Source: Owenia fusiformis (taxonomy: Eukaryota; Annelida; Polychaeta; Sabellida; Oweniidae). Taken from it: DNA of 64,000 nucleotides. The notes beneath the pieces were generated by a model. The model was not told the DNA's origin. It did not search any database and saw nothing but the letters and a program-made list of their open reading frames with translations. The stretch spans positions 1,805,730-1,869,729 of the forward strand of contig CAIIXF020000007.1 in NCBI GenBank assembly GCA_903813345.2, written 5' to 3'. The position numbers and the translations under genes were made by a program. How positions within the stretch are numbered: the first letter of the stretch is position 1; every line of letters starts with the position of its first letter. This document shows, one piece after another, positions 3,039 through 31,400 of this stretch.

Positions 3039-3975
3039 TCATTTTACAACCTCTCTGTCATTATCATTCACTTTAAGATGGGGAGTGTTCACATTTTGCC
3101 ATTGGAAGCCATTTGAGTACAAATAATCAGCACTACATGAGCTACTACTGCTGCTACTGGATGCAACATGTTTATATGCATCTTTTCTCGGACTAGACAT
3201 CACAATACGTTCTCTGCCTGTCCTACTTATTGTGGATGCACTTCCATTTTTAAGAGATGATGATGTCATGATATAACGTTCATTTGTGATTTTATTGTTG
3301 TCAGTCCAAGGGTTCCTCAGGTTTTGTGTATGTTTGTGTTTGTAAAAACAGACCCCTAAGCAGATAATGATTACTGAAGCTAGAAGTAGGAGAATGATTA
3401 CAGATACGACGATAGCGATACATGTCATATCTTCCATGCATTGTTTGCTTATATTCCTGTTACTGGTATTCTCTGAAAGAATAAATTATGAAATTGGTAA
3501 GCTGGGTATAATAAGAAAACAAACTGTTGTAACCATGGATATAATGACATCATAATTAATGAACAATGGATGTTAGGCATTCATAACAACTTTATTGCCC
3601 CCTGGGTTATTTATGTGGATTCTTTCACATGTATATTTGCCTTACATATGCAAATTGCATGTAGCTCCATGGTAAAAGGTCTGCATGGGCTGATATATGG
3701 GGCATCATATAAAATTGATAAGGAACAGTTTATGTTGTGGCAATAATTCAATTTTCAAAATAATATAATGAGTATTTGGCCAATATGAATTGCAGGCTTA
3801 CCTTGTATAGGAGGGTGTGATGTTGAGTTGACCAATGTCAGTGTTGCAGTCACACCATCAGTCATTCCATCACTATTCAGTTCAATTTCACTTTTTGTTG
3901 ATGTTTCACTCTTTGCTATATGGTCACTTTCATTTGTTGAGAATGGATCTATTGTAGAACTGTTAAAAAAAGAAT
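3039..3975 (-). other. stalk, membrane helix and cytoplasmic tail (exons 20-21)
   Basis: Exon 3975-3802 is Ser/Thr/Asn-rich, suited to a glycosylated stalk. Exon 3472-3039 has a ~25-residue hydrophobic run ([20 protein letters not shown]) followed by the basic stop-transfer YKHKH and a ~100-residue tail rich in serine, including an eight-serine run. Stop TGA is at 3039-3041. The stretch 2297-3038 downstream shows no gene; its TTTATT near 2751 would be an AATAAA on the minus strand. Confidence 0.85.
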
Positions 3976-6900
3976 CTGAAAGAAAAAAGTGAAAAACACT
4001 GATTTAGTCTGGAATATTATGGAGATCTAATCTGCAGACTCAACTCAAACCTCTATATTATCATATCAACCATATTAGTGAATTGTCACATTTTCTGCTG
4101 AAGCGAAGCCTAGTAAAATAAAAGATTTTGATAATTAACTTTAACTTTTTACCTAGAGACTTCCCTAGATTCATACATTAGCACCATGCATAAACAGGAT
4201 ATATGTCACCTCCCTAGACTCAACTGAAATCTTACCTATACATTCTGCCAATACTGAGTTCCATACAAGGCTATGTTTACAAGTACATGTGAAACTTCCT
4301 GGCAGGTTAGAACATCCAGAGACATGTAGACCAGTGCAGTTGTCTGTCCCTTCAGAGCATTCATCAATATCTGCAAGTAAACAGGTAGATATAATTGTTA
4401 AGGTGGGACTACATGTACATTGATCAATTATGACCTTTTGCCCACATGTTAAAACACAAGCCTAAATGTAAAAAGTGGATACTGATTTCATTCTACTTCA
4501 AAAACCTTATTTTATCTGTACTTTAATTATAGGTAATGAGTCGGAACGAAATATTTTTTAGCATTAAATATCTACTGATGCACTGATGGATAAACTGCAA
4601 ATAGAAAATCCCCAACTGGCCTTGTAAAGGTGTTAAAAGAATGTATTGTTTCATATTGAAAAAAAGAAATTGCATTTGTGACTATTAGAAATGCTTTGTA
4701 GATGCTGAAGGTTTACTGTGCATGGCTTATTTTAAACGTGATACGCAGTACCCTGTCTAGGTGGAACACCTTTGGTCCCTCTTAAATGTGTTCCACTTGG
4801 GAGGTGTTCAACTTATAGAGGTTCAACATTAAAGCAGATATGGAATGGTATTTTTAACCTAAAGGAATCAATATAATTTTTTGATAGATGTATTTGGACA
4901 TGTTTTCTCATCAATAGTGTGAAAACTATTTCACTCTAACGATCGTTATAGCTGCTTAATAAGCAATATTCGATTTGGTTGTGACGTTATTGGCCCCCAC
5001 GTGATCTCTCACTGGTCCCCAAGTGGCCAGTTTTGGTCCCATTAGATCATGACGTCATAATGCCAAAATGTTTTGTTATTTGTTTACACAACAATCCTAT
5101 GGTTGCCGTGACGTTGTGATTACTATGGAAAAAATAAACCAAAGCTATATTTTGTATATGACGTTACTAATCACGTGGGGGCCAATTTGATTTATCAGTT
5201 AGTTTTATTTCGTTATCTATGACCGTTAGCAGTTATCTAACATTTATTTTATAATGGCTATCGCAAGAACTCTACGGTGGGCTTACAATGGAGAAAACCG
5301 CATTTTTGTAGCTGCAAATTGAGAAAAGCTATTTCAGTTGTCCTTTAAGTCAGTTGGTCTTGGGACTCAGAAAAGCGTTCCACTGACAGAGGTGTTCCAC
5401 TGACAGAGGTGTTCCACTTTACAGGTTTTACTGTATGTGGTTCCTCAGCTAAGACAGGAATTTTACTTCCATCAGTAAGTATGTAAATGCAGTGAACGGC
5501 TTGTTAAGGGTTTGGTGTTTATACACAAGTTTTGGAGTGTGACTCACCAAGGCATGTCTTCACTCCATCTCCAGTATATCCTGGTTTACAAACGCAACTG
5601 AATGTCTCTAGACTGTTAACACAGTCAGCTTCAATGTGACAGTTGTGTGTGTTAGAAACACATTCATCAACATCTGCAATAAACATTCTCATCAACATCT
5701 GCAATAAACATTCTCACCAACATCTGCAATAAACTCTCTCCTCAACACCTGATTTAACTATAATAAACAACATTTACAACTAATGAGCACACAGCGCAGT
5801 TTCCAAATTTAAATTTTAAAGGATATGTTATTGAGAGATTCCAATAAGAGCAAGTACAAAACTTACAAAAAAATATATATTTCACTGATGATCTTTTTAG
5901 TTGTAATCACTAAGGTTTACATACTCTACAGCTCCTGTTTTTTCTTCTCTGTATTAAAATATAATTAAACTGTGAGCTCATTAGAGAGAATAGGGTATGA
6001 GTTAAGATAGAACTGTTTTTTATAAGGATTCATGTTTATGTTATGAACTAAAATAGGACCAATGAGGATTATTTTCATAAATCGGGTTCAGTACATGCCT
6101 CAAAACGCCACGAGTGACAAGTTATACAAATCCTTAGCAAAAAAATGGTTTAAAAATGATGACTTTTTGAGAATAGCTCACCAACACACTGAATAATAAG
6201 TGGCGTCAAATTTTCCTTGACATCTCTAGTTGCGAGGAACTGCCATGTGTTGTGGATATCTTGTGGCAGAAGTGTAGAATCTTGTACAAAAATATGCGCA
6301 TTGGGAGAGTGTAAAGTGTCACTGATAAACCACATCCCAGCAGGGAGACTGTAATACAAGCTGTAACCATCACTTCCTGTAAAATTCATGTTGGCTTGTG
6401 GTTAGGATGAATTTTAAGTACATGTATCTATAGTTTGCTTCAATCCCTCTTGCAAGAGTAAATCTTAAAGTAAGTAAATCTTCTACATACATTTATGTAA
6501 TGTTCACATTTTTTGGACCATTCTGTATATGGATTCTTAGTTGTATTGTAGTTTGTAATTTTCTTTATTATATTGTCTTCAATAAGCCTCTCAACCCCTG
6601 GATCATTCTTGGGATGGGGCAACAAAGCCGTAGCAAAACTACCTTCATCACCATCTCTTCCAATAGTTTGATTTTGCTTGTTTAAAATGGAGCTTCATGT
6701 ACCAAATATACTTGACTCTGACACTCAATGTACTCAAATCCAATAAAACATCATTCTTCCATCAAAGTGGATTTTTTCCAAACATCAATAATTACAGAAG
6801 GAGGTTCAAGTTTGAGTAAGTTATAAACATAATTATTAATTCAAAATAGTGATGTTAGGGACGATAGTTACAGCTATTAGCTGCTATTGAAAGTGAAAGT

Positions 6901-9900: not shown

Positions 9901-12900
9901 CAGAGTTACAAACTCCACCAATGTTACTTGGTGGTGATATAATTCCTAAAGTCAATGAACATAAGCACCTTGGCTTTACTTTTGACCAAAATTTGTCGTT
10001 TGAACCGCACATTATTCAGGCCTCAAACAAAATTGACAAGCTACTTAACCACTTGAAAAGTTTATCAAAAAAACTCAGTGGAAAACATCTTCAACTCATG
10101 TTTAATTCTTACATTTTGCCACATTTTGACTTCTATGATATACTCTATGGCTGTGCAAACTCCTTGACTCTAAAATGCCTGGATAAATTATATTATAAAG
10201 CTGCTGTGATTTGCTCAGGTGTCATCCACGGATCATCCACCATCAAAACACTCCATACTTTAAATTGGCCATCACTCGAAATCCGTAGGAAATTACATAG
10301 GATGTTCCTAGTTTTTAAAGTTAATAAGGGTAATGCTCCGAATTATGTTAGCTCTATTTTTGCAAAGTTTAAAAGAGCACCTATAAGAGATCTAAGATTA
10401 ACCTTACCATATCACATCCCCGCGAAAAGATCATCAATCCAAAATAGATCATGTGTTTTTTCTTGTTTAGGAGAGTGGAACTCACTTGAGCCAACTTTAA
10501 GAGAGTGCATTAACATACATTCCTTTAAGATGGCATTGACAAAGAGTTTGATGAGCACAAACATAAATTTGGCATCTGATATCAATGTCAGTAGATCACT
10601 TGAAATCTATTTAAACAGAATAAGAGTGGATTTTATATTTAAAGCTCATTTACATGCACATAACTTTGTAAATATTCTTTCGCCAGATTGTGCTTGTGGC
10701 CACACAAATGAAACCACAATTCATGTCCCATTCGACAGAATTATTTTATTACTTTTGAACAACAACTCTGTGATCTAAATATTGGATACAGAAATTTATG
10801 TAAGAACAGGCAGGAAAAACTAAACTTTATTCTTTATGGCCACGAAACACTTAAGAAAGAGCAAAACATTGATATTTTGAAGTTGAGTGCAGTGTTTATC
10901 AGGAACTGTGTTGAGGGACCCCAGGCAGTCTAGTGACCTATTATGCTTAATAGTATCATTACTATCAGATCATTTGCAGACCTAGTTTTGTGAATCATCA
11001 TCCTAAAAGTGGCTTATAATGTACCTTACAAAGCCGCTAATGTATTTGTGTTTATTGTAATAATTTGAAATAAAGAAATACAATATAAAAAAAAAAAAAA
11101 AAAAGCTATTAGCCCTTAAGATACTTACTGGTATAACCTGGTCTATTCTTAGATGTTATAGACCTATCATATACACCATTATAGAACTCGACCCCCACAT
11201 TAGGGTGCATCAACCCTGATATCTCAACTCTGTTGCAAGCCACTGGTAAAACATCTGCAATTAAAACATCATTGTGCAGGGGAAGAGAAAATAAGAAATT
11301 AGGGTATGGAAAGAGCATATTTTTGGCATAATCTCACCACAACAAATAAAAAGTTTGGGTGAATCTAAAAAGAAATAAATCTAATTGCATCTGCTAAACA
11401 TTAGTATTCAGGTCTATTGCCTCCATATGTCCATAGATTTTTACCTCCACATACAAAGACTGACAGATTTCAATAGCCCCAGTCAAAAACATGTTAATTT
11501 AAAGTTCAAATCTAGTGCAAAAAAATCTGAAATCATGAGGAGTCAACCTCGGGTTTACGGAAAAGACCGACCCCACCGACCACCGACCGGTCGGTGTTTT
11601 CCACTGGTAGCCTCAAAACAGGGTTTGAAGAAAATGTGTAAAAGACCGACCATATCATATAAAAGACCGAACATATTTGTAGCCTTAGAATATTAATAAT
11701 TTGATTTTGAATGTCAATCGTTGGACTAGGCAACGTTTTTTACCGATTTTGTACCTTGCAACGAATGGCAAGCAAAAAAATTGGTCATGACCGTCTCCTC
11801 TCGATTAATTGTCCTGCCTTAGGTCCTAGCCTATCATTAACCAACCTATCGTTTCTACGGATTCTAATTTTTTACTGAAATTTAACAATTTCGAAACAAA
11901 AATGATTTGTTATCGTCATAGCCTACTGAATACTGAACACGATATTATGTTACATGCGTTCTCTTATCGGGATTAAAAGTGACTTACCATTTCAGTACAC
12001 CATTAGAAAGCTTTTTTTTGTCATATCAAATGTAGTTTTACCAGTTGACGTTTAACAACTGAGAAATCAAACATAACGTTACGACGTCAACATCGACAAT
12101 GTTTGTGTGTTTTTGTTATTGCGTTTCATATGAATGAAGAATGAACTTAATGCAATGTTACGTGCGTTTTTTTCCAAAGTGACTAACCAGGATGAAATTG
12201 GTCTTCTAACAACTGAAACATCACTTAAAAATATGACATTACACACCACGACGATGTAACGTTTTCATCGTGATTTTAAATGATAATCATACGTTTTTAA
12301 ATCACGACCTAGTAAAAGTACTATAGTCATTGGATTCCCAGTTTTAGTTTTACTTCTAATTTTGCATTTTTCATCTTTATGTAAAAGACCGTCAGCCGAC
12401 CACCGACCACATGTACCAAACTGTGGAGAGTGACTGGTCGGTGGTCGGCGGTCGGTGTTTTACGTAAACCCGTCAACCTCCCCATTGATTGACAACAAGA
12501 AGCCTGGATCAACCTTGCACTCATCAATCCATGGAATCAACTGTATACTTATATCTAATATTATAATAAAGAAACTCACCAATATTTTATATATTGTACA
12601 TTACATTGATAATTTTAGTATGGCTAAACCAACGTACCAATGCAGCTGATGTTGACATTTGGGTAAAAGCCGAACCCTCCACCTGTGGAGTATTTCACAT
12701 AGGCGCCTTGTTCAATGTCCTCAGGGTAGTAAGCTGCATCATTGAATTGTATCACTTGTCTCGTACTTCCTGGTGTGGTCCCTACAGTGGAGTTAAACAT
12801 GTTAATTCTTTTGAGATTTAAATGAGATGAATATGTTGTATTATTATCAAGTGTGTTGCTCATACATACTAAAATGCTGCAAACAAAACATGACCAAACT

Positions 12901-15900
12901 TCAATAATGCAAACCCCTTATTCATTATAGAAATCCACCACCAACCTAAACTGATAATATACATTCTTACCTATGAACCATCTGTTACTGCTGGCATAGA
13001 AGAATTTAGAGCGATCCTCATGCTTGTATATATACTTCCCAGAAAGGGTAGAACTATAGTCAATTTTGAAAATTCCAAAATATTTCTTTCTTGGTATCGT
13101 AGGATCAAGATATCCGATGTAGATTTTGGAGCACCAAGAGCGAGCTACAGAATAAAAATATAAAAGATTTCTTTATATCCAGTGTTGTCTTGATTAAGGC
13201 GAGCATTGAGTGATAACATTAATGCATTATTATGTATTATACATACACTAGTTGCAATCAGTGAGCCATTATGTAAAATATCCATGTAAATTATCTCTGA
13301 AATTAGTCTGACTTCTGACATAGTTTTGACATTACTGAATGTGCATATTATATAGCCATACTCCTATATAATTCTGAGACTTTTCTCTTTGAAACAGATG
13401 GTTGAATTCAAAATTGTAAAAGTAGAACTAAAGTGATACTACCTGGTATACAGTCACTAGTGATAGAGTTGTCTGGGATAGCTACACCTCCTGTATAGAG
13501 ATACCATTCTGTAATAGTTTCAGGGCTAATATCTGGTGTATCTGCTCTGATTGTGACCTCTGCTGATGACCCAGGCTCCCCTGGTGTTGGGCTGATGGTC
13601 CAAAACTGGTCCAGGTCATCTTTAATGACATAGCTCAAGGTGAGAGTGCCATCTTGTAGCGTGTATGAAGGGTGCCCATTGACGAGATGGCCATCTATTT
13701 TGTAAGCACCATTCTTGTCATATGCTCCAGTTGATTCATAGTTAGTGCTTCTAATGAGTATATGATCACACACATCAATACCTGTTGGAAACAGAATTGA
13801 GAGCATTGTAGTGTCGTGTACAGAGCCAAGATAGACTATGAGAACAGTTATGGGGAGAAGTCAACATGGCAGTCAAAGAAAAAGTGAGGGGAGGTCAAGC
13901 ATCGGTCATCGTCCGGTTGAAAGGCAATCAATAAACAAGAGTGAAGGACAATCAAGATAAAAAGTGAATTGAATGAGTCATGGAGACGACTGAGGAGGAG
14001 TAAGAACATGGGATCAAAAGGCAAGAGAGAGGAATCAAAGGGAAAGTCAAAGGGCATGTGTGATGGAGACAATCAAGGGAAGGATCCAAGACCAATGGGA
14101 GAGGACAAGAGGGAGGAGATCAGTGTAAGAAACAATATTTGAAACTTTACCTTCAAAGCAAGATATCACTGGGTCAGGGACAGTAGAGTTCCAAGTCTCA
14201 GTTATTTCTACAGGATCTTCAACAGAACTTTGTACAACAGCTTCTATATTCTGATTGATATGTCCCAAGATACCACCTGCAAAATAGCAATTGTGTGCAA
14301 TTATGGCAACTACATAAAATATCTAACTGACTAATGAATGATATTCTTATCTAATGAATCATATTTCTAAAGACTAGGAAATCATGCTTTTCAAATATAC
14401 TTATATTATAAGTTGGTCAATTTTGATCTGATTTTGTTGAGATATTATATCACCAACGAAATACAGTAAAACCTGTCATAGTGAACACCTGTCTCTCGTG
14501 GACATCCTTCCTCCAGAAATACTCTATCAACTTATTTATATTATCCTCTGTTGTGAACACCTACCAACACTGAAGGTTTTTTCATTGCAATTTTATGTTC
14601 AATATTTAGGTTTTCCTGTAATAACTACCAACTTTCCAGTGGTCACATTTTTCGAATGAGAAGAAATAACAAAAGACAGCCAAAAGTGGCCTCAATAGCA
14701 CCCACCAATAATCCAATGGTGCCTCCCTAGATGAGTGACTGAGTAGAGATAGATGCCATCATACAAATGTTTATATGCAGGTCTGTTGTTTGACAGGCCA
14801 GGCAGTAGTTTATATACACCAGGTGATTCCACATTGGCAATCAGTATTTTCTCACATGGTGCTGCAATAAAATATGACATTTGTTACAGATGCTGACCTG
14901 AGAATGGCAAACACTGTGACTGCGGAATGGTAAACGCTGAATGCCGACCGCTGAACACCATCCACAAAAAAGTTGGAGACTATAACAAGATGTCACCACT
15001 TGTGGCAGTAAAAATAGAATACGTAGGATGACATGATTTTCTTATTTTCAAGTGGGTGCAAATGTATTTTCAGGTCAGTGCAAGCCTTTTTTAAAATATG
15101 AGGTGGCTGCTTCGCCCACTTGTTTTTATGCTTTTGTGTCGGGGAGGTCACTGAAAATAGCATATGAATTATTATGGAGATTATGTAACAATATGTTTTA
15201 ACAAACTAAATTCATACCCTAAATGTAAGTTTCTTAAAAAAATTCCAGTTATTTTCCAAAATGACTGCTCTAATAACATGAGTACATACCAGATGAGCAT
15301 TTCAAAGTAACAGCATCATCCTGTATCCAACTGCCCCCACCATCTACCTCCCAGATGGCGCTGATGAGCTCAGGTACAGGTACGGAATCATTGACCCTAA
15401 TCTTCCCTGTGCTAAAATAACTCAGGGCAACCTTCCAGAAAGTTCCATCATAGAATATCTGCTCCTGTGTGTTGAACCTTCTGTATACAGGTCTACTGTT
15501 ATATGTATGGGGTTGAAGGGTATACCGACCAGCCATGTAAGATGCACGGTGTGAGCTGATCCCAGACAACTGTAAGATCTTACAAGGAATTGGTGTCACT
15601 CCTGAAATATAGGTATTGTAGCTTTATTGATGTATGACAACTTTTGTACATGGATGTGCAAGTCAAAAGAACATCAGTGTTGAAGATTCAAATAATCATT
15701 GTATGTGGTGAACTTTGGTCATTGGTTACAAATGCAGTATCATACATAATATGGACTTAAGGATATACCAGTGTAACCTCCGAAAAAATCGACCATTTTC
15801 AATCTCAACGAAACTAGGTTTTTATTATAGACCTAGATGTAGCGATTCGAAAAATGTAATAAAAAAGGTAGGTCAACAGATTAGTTTTTTCATGAGAAGC

Positions 15901-18900
15901 TTCTGAAAATAGGTGTGACGTTATCTAATTTGAACATTTGAGGCGCCATTGATTCCAAAGCAAAAAAACATATTTTCCTATATTTCGTCGATAAAATGAT
16001 GATTTAGGGAGTATTGACGATTTCTTTCGAGCCTAGATAAACTTCCTTTATACATAATTACATTGGTTCGAATATTGGTACACTCAGGACATTTGTTCTT
16101 ACTTTTTTCACTTAAAGTGTTACCCCTACCCCAACAATATTTGTGAATTTTTGTAACGTTTTTCCATTAAAAACATATCTTTTTCATTTCGCATTTTGAC
16201 ACGTTTTGAATCGAAAATTAAGCAAATTTCCAATGGATTGTGGTATTTTTTTTATTTGCTTATTCTAAAAAAGGTGTTCTCATGTTTATTTTGATATAAA
16301 AAAAACATAGGGTCAACGGTCTGTTTTACGCTTGAAAATGCCGTTGAAGATTGGTGTGCTTTAACAATGATACAAAAGCCACTGGTCAATTCGCGTCATA
16401 ATTTAACTAAATATATGACGTCTTCTCAAGAATTAACAAAATCGACTGCTCACAAAAACATAAACTAGCTAAGTCCACATGATAAACATCATTCCAAAAT
16501 ATTATGAATTATGAATAAATTGAGGGCTAGATGCCCCAATTAGACATTCGTTCAATAAACGATGATTTAAAATGGCTAATAATAGCCATATTTGACTCCT
16601 ATTCTAATATGCTAATATTTCTGTTCATTTTTCGGGAAAGGATAACGTTACATTTGAGGTTCACAATTGTGAAAACTCAACATGTCCTGTCTTAATGAAC
16701 TGCCTTCACAAGTATAACCTTACAGATTAGGCATGAATGATTTCACTCGTGATACTGTATAAAGCATGCGTGCTTTTTGATGATTTTCGGGTGGGGTTGT
16801 ACATTCCTGTCCATTCCTCACCCCGAGGTCCCCACTTATGTAAAGCTGTAGGATTTGAGCAAGATACGTCTACTGAATTTAGTACAAGAATAATGTGTTT
16901 TTGTGAATGGCTATGGACGTTTTTCGCATTGTATCCGGCATGTCCGATTATGGTCGTTAATACTCACTGGGAAAATATTTTTAACTCGTAACTATAATTA
17001 TAAAAAATATAGAAAAGGTTTGAATGGCTTGTTTGACATGTTTGATGGTACTTGTTTTGACAGAAAGGAAAAACGAAACAAGGTAATGATTTCAATAGAA
17101 ATACATTATAAATGAATGTTCATGCACGGACTTTAAGTGTCCGTGGTTCATGTAATAAGTGTGTATATGAATTATAGAAATTCGAAAATAGAATACTGTA
17201 TTTTACAGTTGCCTTTTGATATTAAATACCCCTGGTCAATACATAGGCTAAAGACTATAACTTAATGAAAACTCATACAGACTGTAGCGAAATAAGAAGC
17301 AAGTTACAAATGAGATTTGTCGTATTTGTAATACATGGGCTGGGCACATACACATATACTACTGGGATAAACTAAAGAAACGGACACAAAACTGGAATGA
17401 AACAAGAATATACAAAAAATTACTGAATTATTTGGAAGAATTGATGACGTATAGTTCATTTGTTTGTTTATTTGTTGATGGGGCAATATGTCACTGACGT
17501 CACAGATAATGGTATCATATTCCGAGAACCCATTAACAAAAGTTTTATATGGCGTCATGATTAAACAACATTGAAAATGAGAATCTCCTAGTTGCTATGG
17601 ATTACTATGTCGTAAAGCGTCATATATCGTCATTCTGCGTCCTTGATATTTAATACAGAACACTTGTCAAACGTGAAGTTAACAAACGAGCTTTTCATAG
17701 AGGTGTTAATTTTCTATTTCTGTAATTTAAAAATATATCACCATTGTCGTAAGGGTTACACTGGTATATCCTTAATGAAGAATTGAGGACATTCAACACA
17801 CATCTGTAGAATTCATTAGGTTACAGATTATTCATTAGATGTTGTTCAATTACAAATTAGTCAGGTACATATAAAATAAAAACTGTCCACTCACTGGCTC
17901 TAAGCTTGTATGAGAGTCTGAATCCTGTATTGGGTGCAGCCACTTCCCCAGGGGTTAACAAATGAGACCTAAAAAGAACCAGCACCTCTGTTCCCTGGGA
18001 TACAAACTGCCTGGTGGGAAACTCACAACAATACCTATAAGTAAACAACTGGCAATGAATGTACATTAGCACACACAATCAGTGAGCCTATCAAGATGAG
18101 ATATGTAAGCAGCCATAACATAAATGGGTCCCACACAATGAGCTACATGTATATGATCAATGAAAACTTCATATTTTTGGCATGAAGATTTATTACTTCT
18201 TTCCTGAGGGCTGGTCATGACAAGGTGTGAGGCGCGCCACAAACAAAAATGTATACTAAATTCAAGGATGACCAAGTGTAGTACCTTCACACCATTACTT
18301 GAATGAGAGTCTACGAATGAAAGATGATCCAAATTCCAAACTACAACTAAGCTATATTATGAATATTAATATTCTAGTCCTTACCTTGGACCATTTCCCA
18401 CTGTATCAGTAAACCTGACCTGCAACCAGTCTGATACACAGGCCTTCTGTCCACCAACCATAGGGCAATGTAGACTACTTGGACTCACAAAGTCTATGAG
18501 GATTTCCTCATCTGCTCCTGGCTGTTGGAAAAAACAAGTTACAATATAAACGCAGCACTATATATTATACAGTATGTGCAGTAAAACACCAACACCATGA
18601 AAACGACATCAGCAGAAACTATCAAATCGGCAATGAGGCCAAGCTGTCTTTTGCCAGCACCGATGTTCGCACACACAATAATGCCGAAAACGTGAGTGAA
18701 ATATTGTATAAAATCACCATCTACATGACCACCGGCACAATTGTAATACAAGGAAAGTCTGCGAAGACTTTGTTTGTAGAAAGCTTCCCCAACCTAAAAG
18801 AATTGAGAGACTTCATTGCCAGGCAAGATGAATCTTTTGATATCTCCAGTGTCCACCAGAACTCCCTTTTGGACTCAACATTAGAGACACACGCGTCATC

Positions 18901-21900: not shown

Positions 21901-24900
21901 AGATATGCCAAACAAATGCACTTTGAAAACAAATTTGCAATGGTGAGTGGAAACATGAAAAAAACATGGCAACTAATAAATCAAGTGTTGGGGCGCTCAA
22001 AGTTCAACAAAACATCAACTGTCCCTATGCTTATTAACGGGGTCCTCAGTAATGATAGTTCAAAAATATCCAATGGTTTCAATAATTATTTTGCCAATAT
22101 TGGTAAATCATTGGCAGATAAAATCCCCAAATCTAATTCATCCTTTAAAGAGCATCTCAAGAAGATTAAACAAGTCTCTTCATCCTTATTTTTCAGCCCG
22201 ATAACAGAAAGCGAGCTATCAACGGAAATAACAGCCTTAAAAAATACAGCCGCGCCAGGCCTTGATGGGTTCAAGGCTGATATAATAAAATCTGTTGGTG
22301 CTTATCTCGTCAGGCCACTACTATATATCTTCAATCTCTCACTATCAACTGGAACATTTCCCAATAAATTAAAAGTAGGAAAAGTCACACCAATTTTCAA
22401 AAAGGGAGATACTCAGCTCTTTTCAAATTACAGGCCCATTTCAGTGTTATCCGTATTTTCAAAATTACTCGAGAGATGCGTACACTCTCGCCTTGTAAGC
22501 TTTCTAAACAAATTTGAAATACTTTATAAAAACCAATTTGGTTTCCAGAAGAAAAAGTCTACATACATGCCACTTCTAACTTTTATTGAAAAGATAAGAT
22601 GTGCAAATGAAAGCAAAATTCCTTCACTAGGGATATCATTAGACTTCTCAAAAGCATTTGACACTATTGATCATAATATATTATTAGATAAACTCTCACA
22701 CTACGGAATGCGCGGTGTTACCCTTTCTTGGTTTCAAAGTTACTTAACTCAACGTCTTCAGACTGTTATTTCTAATGGCTGTAAATCGAAACAAACCTCA
22801 TTATCTCATGGTGTCCCTCAAGGTTCAGTGCTTGGTCCTATTTTATTTCTTCTTTACATAAATGACATTTACAAATCCTCTGATTTCTTTGAATTCATAC
22901 TATTTGCTGATGATACCAATCTCTTGGCCTCTCACAAAGATTTACCCACTCTATTTGACACCGCAAATGAAGAACTTTCAAAGCTCAGTGACTGGATCAA
23001 TGCCAATAAACTTTCTTTAAACATTGACAAAACTAAATGGATTCTCTTTGGACCAGGTAAAACTTCTAACAATCATTTTCTCAAAATAAATGACACCAAA
23101 CTCAAGCAAGACATCACTATATCTTTCTTAGGAATAGCTATTGATGCCAATTTAACTTTCAAAGAGCATATCAAAAACTTAGAAAAAAAGATTTCTCAGT
23201 GCATTGGGGTCTTGTATGGAGTCCATAATCTTTTAACAAAAAGTGCTTTGCTCAGTATATACTACTCTCTTATTCACTCTCAACTCAATTACTGCAATAT
23301 TATTTGGGGTAACAACTACAAATCTTATCTTAATAAAATTCACATGATTCAAAAACGATTTGTTCGCATTGTTTTAGGAAAAAAATACCTTGATCATACA
23401 GCTCCATTATTCAAAGAACTTAATCTTCTGAATATATATGATATAAATAAGCTGAATACAGCAATTTTCATGTACCAAGTAAAAGATGGTGACCAAATAC
23501 TAAATTCACTACTCGATACAAATTTCCAAATAAACAGTGATACACATAGTTATAATACCCGCCAATGTGACAACTTCCATATTGAACATGCGAACAAATT
23601 TTCCATAAAACGGAATGGGTCTTCACTATGGAATTCTCTTAAAAATTCCACAAAAATGTCAAAATCTATAACCTCCTTTAAAAAGGCCTACAAATCTGAC
23701 CTCTTGTCAAGCTACTTATAAAAAATCTGTCTTATTAAACATCTTTATTTACTATCCACGCATTGTATATTACAATAGTCATGGCACATCATTTAAACAC
23801 AACGTACATACATGCTTAGTGTATGCATTGTACTATGTTATATCATGTAAATACTTGTATATATGAAACTCATATACCTATATACCCTTGTAAACTAGTT
23901 AGACTATATATATATATTTTTTATATTTGCTAGTGATACTTTTTTTTTGATACTTGACATTATACTTTTATATGCCATTTGGTGTCAGTATTAGTCATGT
24001 ATTATTATTGTATATACATTTTTCTAAATAAATAAATAAATAAATTATCGCCCATTATTGATTATCTACTAGGAACATTAAATTTACATCCATTTGATTT
24101 TTCCATCTTTGATGATAGTTTGTCTAACCTAAAATCATTTATAGTTAAGACTTTGGAAATGTAAATCTTGGCTTGTTTTGGGGTTTAATTGAATATCATT
24201 TATTTAACATCATTTGTGTTTTGTGACTAATTTTTATCAAAACAGTTCTGCAAAATTTGTCAATGCGTACCCCAAATTTTCAGGTTCTAAAAGGATATAT
24301 ATGAACATGTACTGTACTTGTATGTGCACTTACCAAGGTGGTTATTCTCCAAGTACACTGTTGTCCCTTGGTATACCCAGTAGTGCCATAACCAGGGCTC
24401 TCTATGTACTGAGGTGTAAACATAGCAATTACACTGCCACCACAACTTGCTATAATATTAAGAATGAATGATATGTGGTAAGTAAGAATGATATTTTCAA
24501 AAGGTCTTGAACAACATTTAAGTCATGCATAATATTTTACAAATATTAAAAAATATATATTTGCAAACTTTAAATAGATTATTAACAACACTTTTAAGGC
24601 ATTTTAGATACATTCATCCAGTAGATCCTTAGAGTGGCAATGCTTTAAAATGATTCAGAAATAAAAGACATCAATATACTTGCCATTAACAGGAGCCATA
24701 GGTGACTGACATCTGTCCCCTTCCCAGCCATCTGGACACAAACATTCAGGGCAATTTTCAGGGTTCCTATACCCCCCATGTTGGCACTCACTCCAGTCAA
24801 GGGTGTTGTAATCAGGGCATTCTCCTGAAATGAATCACCATATTAACTATACACATGAAAAACTCCCATGGATTATCTCTCAATTAATTTTTTTTATTTA

Positions 24901-27357
24901 TACTTTATTTCAAAGTATCCATATACATGTACTACTAATCAATTATTTTTTGTTAAAATAAATTCTTAACTAAAATTGGTTTCTTACTTGCGCATATTTT
25001 ATAGTTAATTAACTTGGCATCATAGAAGGACACACCAACTTCCTGTCCCATAATTCCCTGCTTCTCTGGATCAACAGTTACCATAGTAACTGAGCCTGAT
25101 GTATTGCTGAATGCCTAAAATTAAAGAAACACAAAAACTTCTCAGAAATTCCAGTCTTCAGATTAGGTTTAAAACATTTTGTTAACATTTTTACACTGTT
25201 ATAGAACAGAGACAAATCATGAAACTTATTTTTGTGCAACGCACATATTCAATGTGTGCCACCAATACTCAAAATGTTAAACATACCACGCTGGATCCAT
25301 GCATGATAGAGGCAAGATCGTAGGGTATACCAAAATGCTGCATCTTGAACCAAGCTAGCTTCTCAAACTGTCCAAGCTGAGTTGGGTCTACATTACCAGG
25401 TATCAGAGTTATGTGGTTGTCCCTGTCTGGTCTCTGTTGCTCATTGGAGAAGCCAAGTAGGAACCCAATATGACGCACTATAAGTGACACCTAAAAGAAT
25501 TTACCCAGAAAAGTGCAACATTGAATTATCAGATAGAATAACAATATGATTAATGGGGCAGGAAAACAGTAATTGTGGTATAAACGGTCATATGTGGCAA
25601 CTATGGGATAAATGTGGCATAATGTGGTCAATGGTGGCAAGGACAGGGTATATATGGCAAGATAAGTCCAATATGATAAACCAGAGTAAATATTGCAATA
25701 AATATAACAAAACAAAGTATGGCCTATTAACAAAGGGTCCTACCTTGAAACATGATGATCCAAGACCAAGTTCTTGTTTATCTTGTACTGACTGTTTAGC
25801 AGAACACCTGAAAATTACAAAATATATAATAATGCTCCAGGAAATTAGCCAGCATGTGGAACACCTGAAATGTATATTTTACCCTTGGGAGGAAATCATT
25901 AAAGATATTCTGAAATAAAAATGTACATGTATTTGTATTATGTAAGACCATTTTGGGCCTCTGAATGATTTTCCCCAAAAATTTAAAATTAATTCCTTTA
26001 GGTAGACTAAGTGAAACTAAAATCATTTTAGATTTGATTGAACATCATATCAGAATGCAAGCCTACATGTATTTTGTAAAAGGTTCATATACAGGGTAGG
26101 CCAATAAACAGCCATATTTTTATTTGTCAATAACTTCTTAATAATGCATGGATTTTAAAAACACTTTTCAAGGAAATACAGGAATAACATTTGTGATTGT
26201 TCCTGAAATGTCAAAAAATAAAATAAAAGTAGAATAAAATATGCAGACATTTTTTAGCCCAACCTGTACATAAATATTATTTGTTAATGAAAACTAAGAA
26301 TATACTTGATATACTCACACATCTGTATTGAGTTTGTGTATATGAATGTATTTAGTACCAGCAGTGGGGCCTTGTAAAAGCTGAAACACAAGGCAGGTCT
26401 TCCCACTCCACTGTTCAATAGCTGTAGCAATTATAGACCTCTCTGAGCTACCTACAAAAGAAAGATTTCGATTCGGGTTTCAATTTGGTATCAAATTCAT
26501 TTTAAAATAAAATATTCTTTACTTGTAGCAAAAAGGCTGAAACCTTGTATGTACAATGACCACCATTAAAGGAAGTAAAGACTGTAGAGAGCCTGAGAGA
26601 GTGTAAAATAGAGAATGTAAAATGTTTAAGGCAATCTTTTCAAAAAGCATGATTTCCTTATTTCCTGATTTTCTTTAAAAAAAATTGAGATATCCTATCA
26701 AGATAATGAAGATGTCAAATGAAATGTCCAAATTCATCAGAATTGAAAAAGGGAACCCCCCTCAAGTTAACGATCTTTTTAACAGCTAATCAAAAGAATA
26801 TCCTGAAATTAAGAACTGTAAAACTGTTTATAATATGCAAGCCAATATGCTGGAATTATAACAGCAAAAAATGTAACATTATGACATTTCTTCAAATTTT
26901 ATTCTGCATCTCTTCTACTTTTGAAATATTATATAAACATTTAATAATGTAACAACTCACTGAAAGTATCATCATAATAATATGGTACAGTTTTGACATC
27001 CCATCCTTTATTCAATTCTTTTTTCAGACTTCGCTTTAATCTGTTGTGTAATTTGACATCTAGGTTGGGTGATGTGACATCTAGGTTGGGTGATGTGACA
27101 TCCTGGTTGTGTGATGCAGCTTCTTGACTAAACAGAGTGGCATTCTTGTCATGTGGTCTGAAATCTTTAGTGTATGATGTGACATCTTTGTTGGATGATG
27201 TCACATCATTCATGTTCGATGTGACATCTTGGTAGTTGTATAGAAAGTGTAGATTATGTGAATTGACATGTGGGGTCGCATCCTTAGTTTCTGCTATGTG
27301 TATCAATGATGTCATGACAATGACCATCAGGAAACCATTAATGGTGTGACGTTGCAT
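3039..27357 (-). CDS. membrane-anchored pseudo-astacin with EGF, CUB and five repeated modules (21 exons, 1,299 aa)
   Basis: Exons, 5' to 3' on the minus strand: 27357-26961, 26451-26319, 25807-25744, 25490-25287, 25114-24988, 24824-24680, 24445-24334, 18521-18385, 18034-17895, 15601-15290, 14861-14706, 14276-14151, 13781-13443, 13144-12971, 12781-12638, 11254-11129, 6376-6182, 5673-5548, 4370-4236, 3975-3802, 3472-3039. All junctions are GT-AG and the sum is 3,900 nt with one frame. Order: signal peptide (1-~22), propeptide of nine heptads (44-106), furin-like RLKR (106-109), astacin (~110-308), EGF, CUB (~357-486), five ~105-residue modules (487-1010), two cbEGFs, Ser/Thr-rich stalk, membrane helix (~1174-1198), ~100-residue cytoplasmic tail. 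Expected to be a type I surface protein; the protease is predicted dead. The start Met at 27357 was chosen because it opens a hydrophobic signal sequence. Confidence 0.85.
4746..5433. mobile_element. inverted-repeat element of the 'cagtaaaacctgtct' family with a nested MITE
   Basis: The right end reads GTTCCACTTTACAGGTTTTACTG (5411-5433) before TA; the left end near 4746 is a decayed inverted copy, CCTGTCTAGGTGGAACACC. Internally, 'gttccactgacagaggt' is repeated. Related ends occur at 14462, 50164 and 54242. TA flanks suggest a Tc1/mariner or pogo-like non-autonomous family (inference). It lies in the intron between the two cbEGF exons. Confidence 0.6.
4990..5185. mobile_element. nested MITE with ~16-bp terminal inverted repeats
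   Basis: TTGGCCCCCACGTGAT at 4990-5005 is inverted as ATCACGTGGGGGCCAA at 5170-5185. It lies wholly inside the larger inverted-repeat element. No coding content; superfamily not assigned. Confidence 0.65.
5665..5740 (-). repeat. 25-bp tandem triplication over the splice acceptor of the first cbEGF exon
   Basis: The unit catcaacatctgcaataaacattct is repeated at 25-base spacing (CATCT at 5671, 5696 and 5721). Each unit includes, on the minus strand, TTGCAG|ATGTTG, so the acceptor is present three times. The copy nearest the exon (start 5673) keeps the frame; the others would add 25 or 50 bases and shift it. Confidence 0.8.
7221..10778 (+). CDS. retrotransposon polyprotein: membrane domain, 2A-like peptide, endonuclease, reverse transcriptase
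   Basis: 1,185 residues. Residues ~54-145 hold three hydrophobic segments, then [10 protein letters not shown] (146-155), a match to the 2A consensus DxExNPG|P. Separation would fall between G154 and P155, releasing the hydrophobic N-terminus from the catalytic part. An APE-type endonuclease follows (GDFN near 306, TDHSTLSF near 380), then the [51 protein letters not shown] and FADD near 838. The C-terminal CACG-x-NET-x-H zinc-knuckle-like motif is cut by a frameshift. 2A-driven recoding in APE-type elements is established for trypanosome and sea-urchin elements. Confidence 0.9.
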   Translation: MGIDINSWRRTIGHFNCASNGKISTCISPEVLFLNVVTSSWKYITAKTIEKSQLVVFALLLLTLLLKANRQNVVLLTISTVLFCYCIVVGCMLPLGLKCLYLQMCQDEKISKKAVHLICNISIFISWFSCLLCFIPNTIIALLIMSGDIELNPGPVLGSIPLKFMFSNINSLGAHQMSRFGALKNRIEIDNFKIIGLCEVGNLTKNDISHKYCIKGFHPPIYVNDNRGLLIYVSEEIPKPKLRPDLMNHYNDALWIDIKVNHKVITYGLFYRSPSMNRQETEAYFSRFEDTCSLAKSNTSNIIVINGDFNARSKHWWNGDIDKYEGDILLNSLRILGLTQLINEPTRVTLTSRSCIDLLISNIPNMIVSQTVTPPVGNTDHSTLSFEMLMGTVKNPIYFQRIWQYSNVDVNVLNDSIRDSNLCNIIENSNDMNHVGGNFSNCLFDIYSKCIPNKLIKVKSNDKPWFNDQIRTQINKRNKYHYKFSHSNSQEHNQKYQDQCAIVNDAISKAKDEHEKRMINKMETQQFGSKSYWNVASRLFTGTRLSSIPVLVDQNGENVMTGKEKANIFLAHFIKSFHIGDHFDPVVLDQKRTNASFDILSTNRDEVYIALMSLNINKASGPDQISNRMLKLSAPALAFPLSKLINKIFLTNQFPECWKLGNITPIHKKNDKNTPSNYRPVTLLSCISKVTERIIFNQLFQFLQDQNLLYNLQSGFIPGHGTQLQLLTIIDYITDCLDNGNNVKSIFLDISAAFDSMPHIHLLSKLASYGFGENICFLIKSYLENRRVRVVIDGQESKWSDENYINSGVPQGSILGPLLFLLYINDITDNISSKCYLFADDTSIYQSFKEHDLNNKMALLQTDLNNIYEWSQKWRLQFKASKSAELTFFDQRKSELQTPPMLLGGDIIPKVNEHKHLGFTFDQNLSFEPHIIQASNKIDKLLNHLKSLSKKLSGKHLQLMFNSYILPHFDFYDILYGCANSLTLKCLDKLYYKAAVICSGVIHGSSTIKTLHTLNWPSLEIRRKLHRMFLVFKVNKGNAPNYVSSIFAKFKRAPIRDLRLTLPYHIPAKRSSIQNRSCVFSCLGEWNSLEPTLRECINIHSFKMALTKSLMSTNINLASDINVSRSLEIYLNRIRVDFIFKAHLHAHNFVNILSPDCACGHTNETTIHVPFDRIILLLLNNNSVI
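10700..10933 (+). pseudogene. frameshifted C-terminus of the 2A retrotransposon ORF
   Basis: Just after the [12 protein letters not shown] stretch the ORF leaves its frame and stops at 10778. The reading continues in another frame from about 10720 (CPIRQNYF, later [14 protein letters not shown]) to a TAG at 10931-10933, about 70 residues. A small indel near 10715-10725 explains this. The rest of the ORF is intact, so the copy is young but probably not fully functional. Confidence 0.75.
11551..12471. mobile_element. 921-bp inverted-repeat transposon with 9-bp TSD (Mutator-like)
   Basis: The ends are inverted: GGGTTTACG(G/T)AAAA(G/C)ACCGACC, followed by CCGACCACCGACC. They are bounded by the 9-base direct repeat GTCAACCTC at 11542-11550 and 12472-12480. 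The CCGACC clusters near both ends make GC-rich subterminal repeats in an otherwise AT-rich region. No transposase frame. It lies in the intron between module exons 15 and 16. The 9-base TSD suggests MULE (inference). Confidence 0.82.
14462..14500 (+). repeat. end of a 'cagtaaaacctgtc' family element
   Basis: ACAGTAAAACCTGTCATAGTGAACACCTGT matches the family ends at 50164 and 54242. No convincing opposite end was found, so this is a fragment in the intron between exons 11 and 12. Confidence 0.45.
14873..15008 (+). repeat. dispersed ~130-bp repeat, copy A
   Basis: Shares 'atttgttacagatgc', then a run of degenerate 'ccaaacacc/cgaacacc' words, then 'ggagactataacaa-atgtcaccactt' with copies at 41091-41211 and 60918-61046. 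No inverted ends and no open frame. The family is unknown. Confidence 0.6.
15761..17771. mobile_element. 2.0-kb inverted-repeat transposon with TTAA TSD
   Basis: GGATATACCAGTGTAACC at 15761-15778 is inverted at 17754-17771, and each end abuts TTAA (15757-15760 and 17772-17775). TTAA target sites are used by piggyBac and Kolobok elements. No transposase domain is visible inside, so this is a non-autonomous copy. It occupies most of the intron between exons 9 and 10 of the pseudo-astacin gene. Confidence 0.8.
18725..20362 (+). CDS. retrotransposon ORF1 protein with SGNH/esterase-like domain
   Basis: 545 residues from the first ATG. The N-terminal ~120 residues are polar. A coiled-coil-like stretch (~110-170) and a Pro/Lys-rich linker come next. 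The esterase-like domain has block [11 protein letters not shown] (GDS 271-273), block II TYGGA and block [11 protein letters not shown] (D410, H413). Block III, usually GxND, reads GIID, so the oxyanion Asn is missing. A Pro/His/Gln-rich tail follows. Esterase-bearing ORF1 proteins are known for CR1/L2-group elements, where they act in the retrotransposon RNP. Confidence 0.85.
   Translation: MTTGTIVIQGKSAKTLFVESFPNLKELRDFIARQDESFDISSVHQNSLLDSTLETHASSTTLLKVITPLPLQSIEVKSHCENNNQTSIEEQSNCEEDSLADVLLLLNQIDERNQKRCDQLESLIRDQEVRFMRSLKTEARSLLDEIKHSSDLTKSFNSDTTKEIREVKGAIQRMQNAPTKPKEPKAPTAASKPHEPCEDMPLAHLQSEIIKDNVQTQAPTISSQRQEPHQDLPRTSPHSARGRTTNAPKDQTQKPIRTLYLNRSTTSLIIGDSRLRKVKPQNLGAPVAVRTYGGATLSNIKDSIDSSKDSPNLRNITLQAGIIDIKNGSSMLDIKADTMLLIETAKSKFPNAKFLISSIIPMLSHKLNESVREANTMLESLAKSTPNVSYHSCYEQFGRFNTVDRNLFYDQSHLNDAGVAKLETFLKSLPGNCESPTESIPQVSDATQTAVSDSTASIQPVHPSNTPIPQSNNPRYAPVQPYVHDIHSGFNSYNPTAVHPAHVLPQGHQRWAQYAPPPYGWQWNQHQPQASQVNSGLHNMPIMAY
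20608..23721 (+). CDS. retrotransposon ORF2: APE endonuclease and reverse transcriptase
   Basis: 1,037 residues from the first ATG. Endonuclease blocks: [25 protein letters not shown] (near 234) and SDHFP (near 300). RT blocks: [71 protein letters not shown] and FADDTNL (near 766). All catalytic motifs are present with no stop or frameshift, so this copy could be recently active. The TTG at 20569 is in frame but not a likely start. Confidence 0.93.
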   Translation: MNYSSLVVNDAPCYCTTLPFYNVHDSDFLSIAPYGPSASTFEDLLFDPISFNHAADNSSESIRCITDNLVQHCNYHSPNQLSEVLNSSPKNGLSLLNLNIRSFSANQQKLETMLSLLTKSFSIIGCTETWLKSHTECQATLMNYNSEFNSRKIKTGGGVGLFINKAVEYVRRDDLQINHDSCESLTIQLTNSKNKNILISIIYKPPNTNQEEFNTDLQALLDTISKEKKTVYILGDFNCDLLKAESNHATQDFLNLFYSHNLIPLIYRPTRITRNTATLIDNIFTNAPSISRAGIFLEDISDHFPIYALTEMQAQKIKTSTVSFRQFNNTNKSSFKEQVKTMIWHNIENTNDVNEAYSNFDKELSIIFNQCFPIKTFKSSYYFDPSRPWLSTAILTSAKRKNNLYKKFIQYPNEQNKKIYKSFSHKLKHIIRYAKQMHFENKFAMVSGNMKKTWQLINQVLGRSKFNKTSTVPMLINGVLSNDSSKISNGFNNYFANIGKSLADKIPKSNSSFKEHLKKIKQVSSSLFFSPITESELSTEITALKNTAAPGLDGFKADIIKSVGAYLVRPLLYIFNLSLSTGTFPNKLKVGKVTPIFKKGDTQLFSNYRPISVLSVFSKLLERCVHSRLVSFLNKFEILYKNQFGFQKKKSTYMPLLTFIEKIRCANESKIPSLGISLDFSKAFDTIDHNILLDKLSHYGMRGVTLSWFQSYLTQRLQTVISNGCKSKQTSLSHGVPQGSVLGPILFLLYINDIYKSSDFFEFILFADDTNLLASHKDLPTLFDTANEELSKLSDWINANKLSLNIDKTKWILFGPGKTSNNHFLKINDTKLKQDITISFLGIAIDANLTFKEHIKNLEKKISQCIGVLYGVHNLLTKSALLSIYYSLIHSQLNYCNIIWGNNYKSYLNKIHMIQKRFVRIVLGKKYLDHTAPLFKELNLLNIYDINKLNTAIFMYQVKDGDQILNSLLDTNFQINSDTHSYNTRQCDNFHIEHANKFSIKRNGSSLWNSLKNSTKMSKSITSFKKAYKSDLLSSYL
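24680..24824 (-). other. EGF-like domain exon after the astacin domain (exon 6)
   Basis: The exon reads [18 protein letters not shown], then [19 protein letters not shown]. This is the six-cysteine EGF type that follows the protease in many astacins (CxxGGYxNPxNC, then CxCPxGxxGxxC). It joins the astacin end (25114-24988) and the CUB start (24445) in frame. Confidence 0.9.
26092..26266. mobile_element. 175-bp MITE, family 'cagggtaggccaata', TA-flanked
   Basis: CAGGGTAGGCCAATA at the left is inverted as TTTAGCCCAACCTG at the right, with TA on both sides. The ends match the larger element at 51810-52396. Tc1/mariner-like by target site (inference). It is in the intron between astacin exons 2 and 3. 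Confidence 0.7.
27040..27228 (-). repeat. 21-bp coding minisatellite: nine DVTSxNx heptads in the propeptide
   Basis: Nine consecutive 7-residue units (residues 44-106) start DVTS, DVTS, DVTS, DFRP, NATL, EAAS, DVTS, DVTS and DVKL. Two adjacent units are identical in protein, which suggests recent unit duplication. The array ends at the RLKR cleavage site. Confidence 0.85.
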
Positions 27358-28434: not shown

Positions 28435-31400
28435 TCATAACTGGCTGACAAGTCCTGACACTGGAGCACTGGTCTTTATAAGAGACTGAATGTCCTTGAA
28501 CTTGGCATGTTCTTTGTCTCCCACAAGCTGTAGTAGCACTGCTTCACTGGTCGTCACCACAGCACCAGCTTGTCGCAGTCTCTGCAACACACAGATTACT
28601 CTCGTAACTAAGAAACATAGCAGACACCTCTAGCCACCAAGCTACAGATAACTCTTGCTACCATGAATGATTAGCGACAACTCTTGCAACTGTAATCCAA
28701 AGAAATCTTGCAACCATGATATACACAGGCAAATTACATTACGGACCTCGTACAAGCCTGTACGAAGCTCGTTGAGTTAACGGGCCCTGTACAACCTTGT
28801 ACGGGCCTCGTACGGGCCTCGAGTCTCATAATTGCTTGTAATTTTCGACCCTCGTAAGAGCTTGTAATTACAATGCCCGTAATGTACTTGACCATACTGT
28901 TCCCGTAACGAGCCCCGTAATAAATCGTAATTTTCAATCCCCATACTTGCTCATACCATGGGCATTCAATAAAAGTGTATGGTACTCTGTGTTATTACAT
29001 GGGAACTTCAAAATGAGAGTTGCCATGCTACCCCTTTTTGGTAATATTCCAAAAAGATTTAGGTTAAAGATTGTTATGTGATGTTTTTAACATTATCTTG
29101 AAGGAAAAATAATTTTGAACATGATTAAAACATGAAACATGATTAATCTCATTTAAAAGTAAACCAAAAAGACCCGTAATAGCTCTTAATTTTCAAGCCT
29201 AGTACTTGCCTGTACGATGCCCGTAACAAGGTCCACAATGGCTCGTAATTTTTGAGCACTGTACTTACACATATGGGGCTCATAACGAGGCTCGTAATTG
29301 CTCGTTTATTTTGATGAACATTTTTTGATCGATGAAATAAAATATAGCACACTTGAGAGACATTTCAATTGTATCTAATTATGAATTAATATGTCTTCAA
29401 TAATTTCAAAATATTTGCATGTCTGTATCAATATAATAAACAGTATAAAAGCTAGGAAACAATGGTTACCAATGGGAGACACCATATTTCTCTACAAGTG
29501 AAGTAAGTGCATCCAAAAAACATTTGCGTGCGTTAGTTGATTTAAAGTAAAAAACGTGATGGAAAGCTTGAGCTCGTACGGGCCTCGAAATTACGCCTCA
29601 TACATTCTCATACATGCCTCCTGAAAAACATTTACAAGCATCGAACGAGCTCATACGGGCCTCGAAAACAAGCTCCGTATGAGGATCGTGCTCTTTTTGC
29701 CCGCAATGACTCGTAATCATCGAGGCTCATACAAGCTCATACATGGCCTGATGTAATTTGCATTTGTGATATGGACAACTCTTGCAACCACGATACATAC
29801 AACTCTTGCTACTGTGGTACAGTCAACTCTTGCAACTTTCATACAGACAACTCTTGCAACCATGTTACAGACAACTACTCTTGCAACCATGATACAGACA
29901 TATCTTGCAACTATGATACAGACAACTCTTGTAACCGTGATAAAGACAACTCCAGCAACCAAGCTACAGACAACTTGCAACCAAACTACAGAAATCTCTT
30001 GATACACTTGCAACCCAGCTATAGTCAATTCTTCCATGATGGTAACGATAACTCCTGTAATCAAATTACAGGCATATTCATGCTACAAAAGTATAGACAT
30101 CTCTTACAACCAAGCTCCATGCAAATCTTGCAACCAGTGCACAAGCAACTCTTGAAACCAGAATAAAGACAACTTCTGCAACTATTGTCCAGACAACTTC
30201 TGTGACCACGGTACAAACAACTCTTAAAAGTATGCACATAAACAACAGGAATCGAGAAACAAACCTTAGACTTACCTCAAAAGCGAACTGTCTGTCCATC
30301 TGGCTACGTGAAGACACAGCATCTGCTACTACATGTACATCATATCCCAAGCTCAGTAGATCTAGTGCAGTTTGCTGGACACACACATGTGCCTAAATAA
30401 AAAAAGTCTACCTGTTAAAAAACATAGGGATTATTAAAAATCAGAATGTGGACCTCAATGGAACAAACTTTATTTCATAAAATTATCCAAAATGACTTTT
30501 TAACCTTGTAACTACTAACTACCTCTTAACTAGTGACAAGATCTCTGGTAACAAAATAAGAATACTGTATGCCCAGTATTTTTCGCGTGCTAGTAAGTGA
30601 CAAGATAATCAGTCACAGAGCTTTGGCAATTCTAGTCTAACCTACACTTAATGATTTAAGAGGAGCAGAAAGAATCCTTGTTTATAATATTGATCAAACT
30701 GAGCATCACATTTTGTATGCAGTCTTCAGTTGAATTTCAAAACTGGTAACACCTGAACATGCTAGAGCCTAGAAGTCAAGAAGATTAGAACTGCCATGTT
30801 TAGACAAAGATTGAAGTGTGAGGGGAGATGACAAGTCAATTAAAAGCAAAGCCATCATTCCTTCAAGCATATCGAAGGACATTGCCTTTAACCACATTCT
30901 CTAATTCCAGTATATTGCCTTCATACAGATGAAGGAAAATTCAGGATTATATGTTTCAAATCTAATATACAGCATACATATTATTTACATGTACCTCTAT
31001 TCCAAAAAGAATGATGTGTTCTAAAGTTCCACCACATAGAGATGTCATGGCTTCCTTCACCTCAGGAATCAACATAGTAAACTTTGTCTTGGGGAATACA
31101 CCTACTGCATTGTCAATCTCAAGCTCTGCTACAGTCTTACCAAGCCCCTTGGGGTACTAGAAATAAACAATTTTGTGTTATTTACACGCAAGGCTATTTT
31201 CACTGTAATTCACATGTACAAGGTGATCCAGAAGTAACGTCATAGGAGTTGCTATTTTAATATATTTTTTTTTTATTAACAGGGTTCGATCTTAGCGGTA
31301 GCAAGGAGCAAATTTGCTACCTGTTTTCACATTTTGCTCCAAAAACTTCGTGGCCGGGAGCAAATGCTTGCTACCTCAAATTTAAGCAATGAATCTCATG

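Follow-up and report, generated by a model that had tools for sequence, protein, structure and literature searches.

Pseudoproteases are an already known kind of protein, and MEROPS lists non-peptidase homologues for many peptidase families. Within family M12, inactive metallopeptidases are known mainly as ADAMs. Here we analyse a stretch of 64,000 nucleotides from the annelid Owenia fusiformis (assembly GCA_903813345.2, contig CAIIXF020000007.1, positions 1,805,730 to 1,869,729 of the forward strand), called the window throughout. On its minus strand lies an astacin-family gene (subfamily M12A), the window gene, whose active site is degenerate. As judged from its sequence, the product is most likely a membrane-bound pseudoprotease which acts by binding rather than cutting.

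The inactive ADAMs (M12B: ADAM2, 7, 11, 18, 22, 23, 29, 32 and unc-71), whose active-site substitutions are tabulated in the accessible part of PMC11266112, are likewise single-pass membrane metzincins with a substituted active site. They share with the window protein a retained Met-turn and an EGF-like module. However, they belong to the other M12 subfamily and carry disintegrin and Cys-rich domains where the window protein has a CUB domain and repeats; neither of these two domains gave a Pfam match at E 0.1 in its 1,299 residues. Another likeness is to the BMP1/tolloid and meprin branch of the astacins, with which it shares the full-length catalytic profile, Glu103, the RXDRD sequence, the Met-turn methionine, four cysteines, EGF-like and CUB modules and a furin-type site. 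Unlike the astacins of this branch, it lacks every zinc ligand, the general base and the tyrosine switch, and FXGD was not found in its prodomain. Meprins are also membrane-anchored astacins with an EGF-like module, but they are active and contain MAM and TRAF domains. The accessible text of PMC9848320 describes those astacins of other phyla that contain MAM and EGF as apparently not bound to the membrane, whereas the window protein has a predicted helix.

No described pseudo-astacin was found among the matches listed in the literature on astacins and inactive peptidases. In the accessible part of the pseudo-metallopeptidase review PMC11266112, the word ‘astacin’ occurs once and the M12 rows of its tables are ADAMs and unc-71. 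The astacin survey PMC9848320, as far as its text is accessible, checked hits for an intact zinc motif and the prodomain aspartate, and genes like the window gene would therefore have been excluded by design; the word ‘inactive’ does not occur in the accessible main text. Similarly, the available portion of PMC4826915 lists blowfly M12A clusters without non-peptidase homologues.

The active-site segment

The astacin active-site segment is encoded by exon 4 (25490-25287, minus strand; 25289-25490 were translated). Five astacin positions are substituted: His92 by Arg, Glu93 by His, His96 by Phe, His102 by Asn and Tyr149 by Gly. None of the four zinc ligands remains, nor does the catalytic glutamate, and the HEXXHXXGXXH of active astacins is absent. 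The window gene reads SIMHG where active astacins have SIMHY, with loss of the zinc-binding tyrosine and retention of the Met-turn methionine. In contrast, the family-specific Glu103 followed by XXRXDRD is present as NEQQRPDRD. Numbering was assigned from the alignment to TLL1/BMP1 and from the motif definitions in the accessible part of PMC9848320. Cysteines occupy all four places equivalent to the disulfides Cys42-Cys198 and Cys64-Cys84, and these bonds are predicted from sequence.

The spliced domain matches Pfam Astacin (PF01400) at profile positions 2-188 of 189 with an E-value of 2.8e-41, which places the alignment register beyond doubt. Among 17 solved sequences matched in the PDB, the best are TLL1 (E 8.8e-20) and BMP1 (E 1.9e-18).

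A first-pass annotation of this DNA had proposed that the zinc ligands, the catalytic glutamate and the tyrosine are all changed while the four cysteines, RPDRD and clean splicing are retained. The substitutions are borne out by the exon translation and the Pfam register, and the retained features by the alignment and by 20 introns which are all GT-AG with matching phases. That annotation counted exons 1-9, whereas the gene model presented here has 21. It had further considered that an alternative exon might restore HExxH. The uninterrupted HExxHxxG pattern occurs on neither strand of the whole 64 kb window, which rules out an alternative exon within it that would supply the motif in one piece.

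Constraint on the window protein

Exon-4 columns at least 80% identical in 24 active rows, hand-picked for the same exon from the 78 motif-intact places of the genome described below, were divided into 5 catalytic and 12 other positions. The window gene keeps 0/5 catalytic and 12/12 other conserved positions (Fisher p 1.6e-4). In other degenerate paralogs the numbers of catalytic and other positions kept are 1 and 12 (L089), 1 and 11 (L092), 0 and 8 (L096), and 3 and 9 (L086, p 0.6).

The open frame was compared with neutral simulations. Over 1,299 codons, 0.05 changes per site introduce a mean of 7.2 stops and leave none of 300 runs stop-free; at 0.02 per site, 6% of the runs are stop-free. 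For exons 2-5 alone (176 codons), the stop-free fraction is 34% at 0.05 and 4.7% at 0.2 per site. In addition, a branch codon model of 335 codons covering the astacin, EGF-like and CUB modules rejects an omega (dN/dS) of 1 on the window branch (2dlnL 13.4, p 2.5e-4). Comparison with the nearest paralogs is affected by saturation of synonymous sites, with branch lengths at the bound, and for this reason the omega-1 test is the only quantity quoted from this model. Constraint appears to act on the window protein as a whole, and is likely to act on the astacin domain by itself.

Degenerate active sites across the genome

Searching the genome with PF01400 returned at least 142 exon-wise matches; 150 of 211 candidates were scored, and the genome counts are lower bounds. 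From the match table, 85 places spanning the HExxH columns were picked, the window included, with the near-identical copies L057 and L058 counted twice. HExxHxxGxxH is retained in 78 of the 84 other places and lost in six (G000:C1:11859111, C2:9432146, C7:26551962, C7:37638280, C7:22664825, which is L092, and C7:1066973). With the window gene, degenerate active sites amount to 7/85 places examined.

The six differ in what they have lost. L050 reads HILLH, with SIMHS in a later exon of its locus. L085 has HQLLH with Asp as third ligand, and L086 REIGH with Asn. In L089 (RQIGH, MQD) and L092 (KQIGH, YHS) the third ligand is Pro, while in L096 all five catalytic positions are changed. As far as its exons were examined, L092 resembles a second inactive gene with an open frame. 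The third exon of L089 was not found, and L096 may be a pseudogene, as only its active-site exon was resolved. Of the 78 motif-intact places, 73 have a glutamate directly after the third histidine; such general conservation means that retention of Glu103 in the window gene is no special proof of gating.

Repeats accompany two of the astacin loci. In L103 (~2900-3700) the real active-site exon is preceded by several tandem copies of its own start (STFKLGTIAHEIGHILGF). In L099 (~4450-6600, reverse complement) a long repeat array, open as GNKGGVMVNHIYLNHACLNVSIL, lies upstream of the degenerate exon L096.

Origin of the inactive gene

The closest active paralog, L013 (L008/L013, G000:C6:8720368), has an uninterrupted frame through its astacin, EGF-like and CUB modules and keeps HEIGHSLGLIH, SVMHY and the YEGD of its prodomain. 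In a tree of exons 2-7 from which the active-site columns were removed, it groups with the window gene at 98/96. Ten of 13 aligned rows entered this tree; L021, L061 and L064 were left out for their shortness, and L071, also short with 37% filled, was kept. L013 is therefore sister to the window gene and resembles it in its modules, but differs in its uninterrupted frame and intact motifs. Given these catalytic and prodomain motifs, the two most likely descend from an active common ancestor, after which the window gene, its introns kept, would have lost its active site. This intronless copy is perhaps a retrogene of the window gene's lineage.

A common origin of the inactive genes was considered and rejected. 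It was suggested by a tree of exon 4 alone (31 rows, active-site columns included), which paired the window gene with L092 at 91/87, a pairing we attribute to shared substitutions. On the 10-row tree, holding the window gene with L092 is rejected by the approximately unbiased (AU) test (p 0.0225), and the inactive label requires three changes for three inactive genes. Because this grouping is rejected, inactivation has probably recurred within the astacin family. The long branches of L092 and L013 make the tree of exons 2-7 less than certain.

Weighing the possible readings

We assign a probability of about 0.72 to the reading that the window gene encodes a functional type I membrane protein whose ectodomain carries a pseudo-astacin. 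The first-pass annotation had suggested a pseudoprotease kept for binding or scaffolding on the cell surface. Its pseudoprotease part is well supported by the contrast between catalytic and other positions and by the open 1,299-codon model; the cell-surface part is supported by a C-terminal transmembrane helix from hydropathy, and the binding or scaffolding part is reasonable, yet we infer it only.

Several results weigh against this reading. An omega of 1 is not rejected for the 173 astacin codons (p 0.055) or for 156 codons without the motifs (p 0.38), so that dN/dS across the domain, which the first-pass annotation had proposed as a check, speaks for constraint over the three modules together but not for the astacin domain alone. 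Exons 2-5 without stops are unremarkable until ~0.2 neutral changes per site. The control branch of an active paralog, L041, itself reaches only p 0.011, and the N-terminal hydrophobic stretch stays below 1.6 in a 19-residue scan, the signal peptide being judged by eye. The control result points to low power of the codon test, and saturation of synonymous sites accounts for the non-significant astacin-only result.

Some of these results lend something to the idea that the gene is decaying, having been silenced recently and left to drift, with stops yet to appear in its astacin exons: the astacin-only test and the stop-free probability of 0.34 for exons 2-5 at 0.05 per site agree with it, and so does the distance of the closest relatives. 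We nevertheless regard it as very unlikely, as all 1,299 codons are free of stops, every splice site is intact and, among 17 conserved positions, loss is restricted to the catalytic ones. A hand count puts the base changes required in the five active-site codons at 9 or more. At 0.4 changes per site the neutral probability of at least 8 of 15 sites changed is 0.06, and the whole frame would then hold a mean of 36 stops. This argument is weakened by the fact that these codons were chosen for having changed.

Two further explanations accept a functional protein and differ on what it does. It could be an inactive regulator of active paralogs, operating through mixed complexes or substrate competition (dominant-negative or chaperone) with no ligand of its own. 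Potential partners are many, given the 78 motif-intact places, an active paralog shares the EGF-CUB-repeat modules, and astacin CUB and EGF modules mediate protein contacts. However, exon 4 reaches 28-41% identity at best against 21 other matches and a conserved shared interface is not evident, which leaves this explanation unlikely. Less credible still is a repurposed site, in which the cleft would hold another metal or chemistry by way of the histidine at the old glutamate place or of nearby residues. More histidines do occur nearby in sequence (MHG, QHFG), but no known metal motif was seen and the two helix ligands are now Arg and Phe.

Gene model and domain architecture

The window gene model comprises 21 exons on the minus strand (27357-3039) and 1,299 codons in a stop-free frame. 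Exons were joined via GT-AG sites and phase; the first methionine is our choice, and another in-frame ATG lies further upstream. The order of domains is prodomain, RLKR site, pseudo-astacin, EGF-like, CUB, unnamed repeats, two EGF_CA, transmembrane helix and tail. From the ninth onward all introns are in phase 1, the usual phase where extracellular modules have been shuffled.

Exon 1 (26961..27357) encodes the hydrophobic start, a prodomain, the furin-type RLKR site and the start of the astacin domain. The prodomain holds 21-base tandem repeats coding DVTSPNL-like units (27043-27230), a possible length polymorphism. FXGDI is common to animal astacin prodomains and its aspartate blocks the zinc, as described in the accessible text of PMC9848320. 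No xGD is present in residues 1-110 of the model, although an unrecognised upstream exon could hold one. L013 has LYEGDVV, and FQGDV occurs in a frame ahead of exon 2 in the active paralog L034; scanning the same region gave doubtful fragments in L041 and L043. Nothing was found upstream of exon 2 in the inactive L092 and L089, where upstream exons are unmodelled and absence says little. The furin-type site, RLKR in the window gene, reads RNKR in L013, RQKR in L092 and RTKR in L034.

The astacin domain continues through exon 2 (26319..26451, Cys42 equivalent), exon 3 (25744..25807, Cys64 and Cys84 equivalents), exon 4 with the dead active site (25287..25490) and exon 5 (24988..25114), which ends the domain with the Cys198 equivalent. 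Exon 6 (24680..24824) is 52-59% identical to paralog exons, and its module is called EGF-like from six cysteines and from a match to EGF_2 that is too weak to reach the cut-off (E 0.059). The CUB domain spans exon 7 (part 1, 24334..24445), exon 8 (part 2, 18385..18521) and exon 9 (end, 17895..18034), and its Pfam match (E 4.3e-4) scores 21.0 bits against a cut-off of 21.4.

Five repeat modules follow: module 1 in exon 10 (15290..15601), module 2 in exons 11 (14706..14861) and 12 (14151..14276), module 3 in exon 13 (13443..13781), module 4 in exons 14 (12971..13144) and 15 (12638..12781), and module 5 in exons 16 (11129..11254) and 17 (6182..6376). Module 1, like the whole stretch between CUB and EGF_CA, gave no Pfam match at E 0.1, and a PDB search of the modules returned a single weak match to one of them (E 0.085). 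Exons 10-17 (15601-6182) contain about five copies of a Cys-flanked unnamed repeat of the form G-x-Y-x-L ... N-x-RPVY ... W-x-I-G. The same repeat (G-x-Y-x-L ... W-x-I-G), also without a Pfam match at E 0.1, occurs in the paralogous astacin genes L097, L108 and L109.

EGF_CA was found by Pfam in two stretches, the calcium-binding EGF modules of exons 18 (5548..5673) and 19 (4236..4370). Exon 20 (3802..3975) encodes a Ser/Thr-rich stalk with N-glycosylation sequons, and exon 21 (3039..3472) the transmembrane helix, the cytoplasmic tail and the stop codon. Hydropathy exceeds 1.6 only at residues 1166-1202, which corresponds to one hydrophobic helix; the tail predicted after it has ~100 residues.

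The paralogs L041 (active site intact) and L092 (inactive) show the same-strand order astacin, EGF-like, CUB and repeats, which supports the assignment of the distant exons to one gene. In L041 an EGF_CA-like module is also matched weakly (E 0.025). Elsewhere in the genome, repeat module 3 has three matches at E 0.001, of which two lie ~3 kb past the L041 exon and ~13 kb past the L044 exon on C7. For the transmembrane exon, the genome yielded no further match.

Introns 7 and 16 contain antisense (plus-strand) elements resembling long interspersed nuclear elements, at 18500-23721 and 7218-10778, respectively. Their frames of 1,056 and 1,186 amino acids, respectively, stop to stop, have endonuclease and reverse-transcriptase domains, and that of intron 7 is preceded by a 620-residue frame without a Pfam match. 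A partial isochorismatase domain (30078-30392, minus; E 1.1e-10, profile positions 123-161 of 175) lies upstream in the same orientation as the gene.

Proposed mode of action and significance

Under the favoured reading of a membrane-anchored pseudo-astacin, the ancestor was most likely an active, furin-activated astacin-EGF-CUB-repeat protease, and the window gene would be one among several independent inactivations in an expanded family. Furin-like cleavage at RLKR would still mature the protein. The new N-terminus may then dock on Glu103 and set the mature fold, and the zinc-free cleft together with the EGF-like, CUB and repeat modules could bind a ligand at the cell surface as a receptor, decoy or scaffold. 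This mode of action can be likened to that of the inactive ADAMs.

More tentatively, and with considerable doubt, we suggest that pseudo-astacin receptors anchored in the membrane form a class which has recurred in this lineage. Catalysis and zymogen latency would have been lost together while furin cleavage and the N-terminal lock on Glu103 were retained, so that maturation would now switch on a binding surface. If this is true, proteolytic maturation has been reused, the former on-switch of an enzyme now activating a binding surface. With the retained Glu103 and furin-type site, the idea that zymogen activation can be reused to gate binding becomes concretely testable. Should dead astacins prove equally common elsewhere (7/85 places examined in this genome), a class of extracellular binding proteins would have been overlooked.

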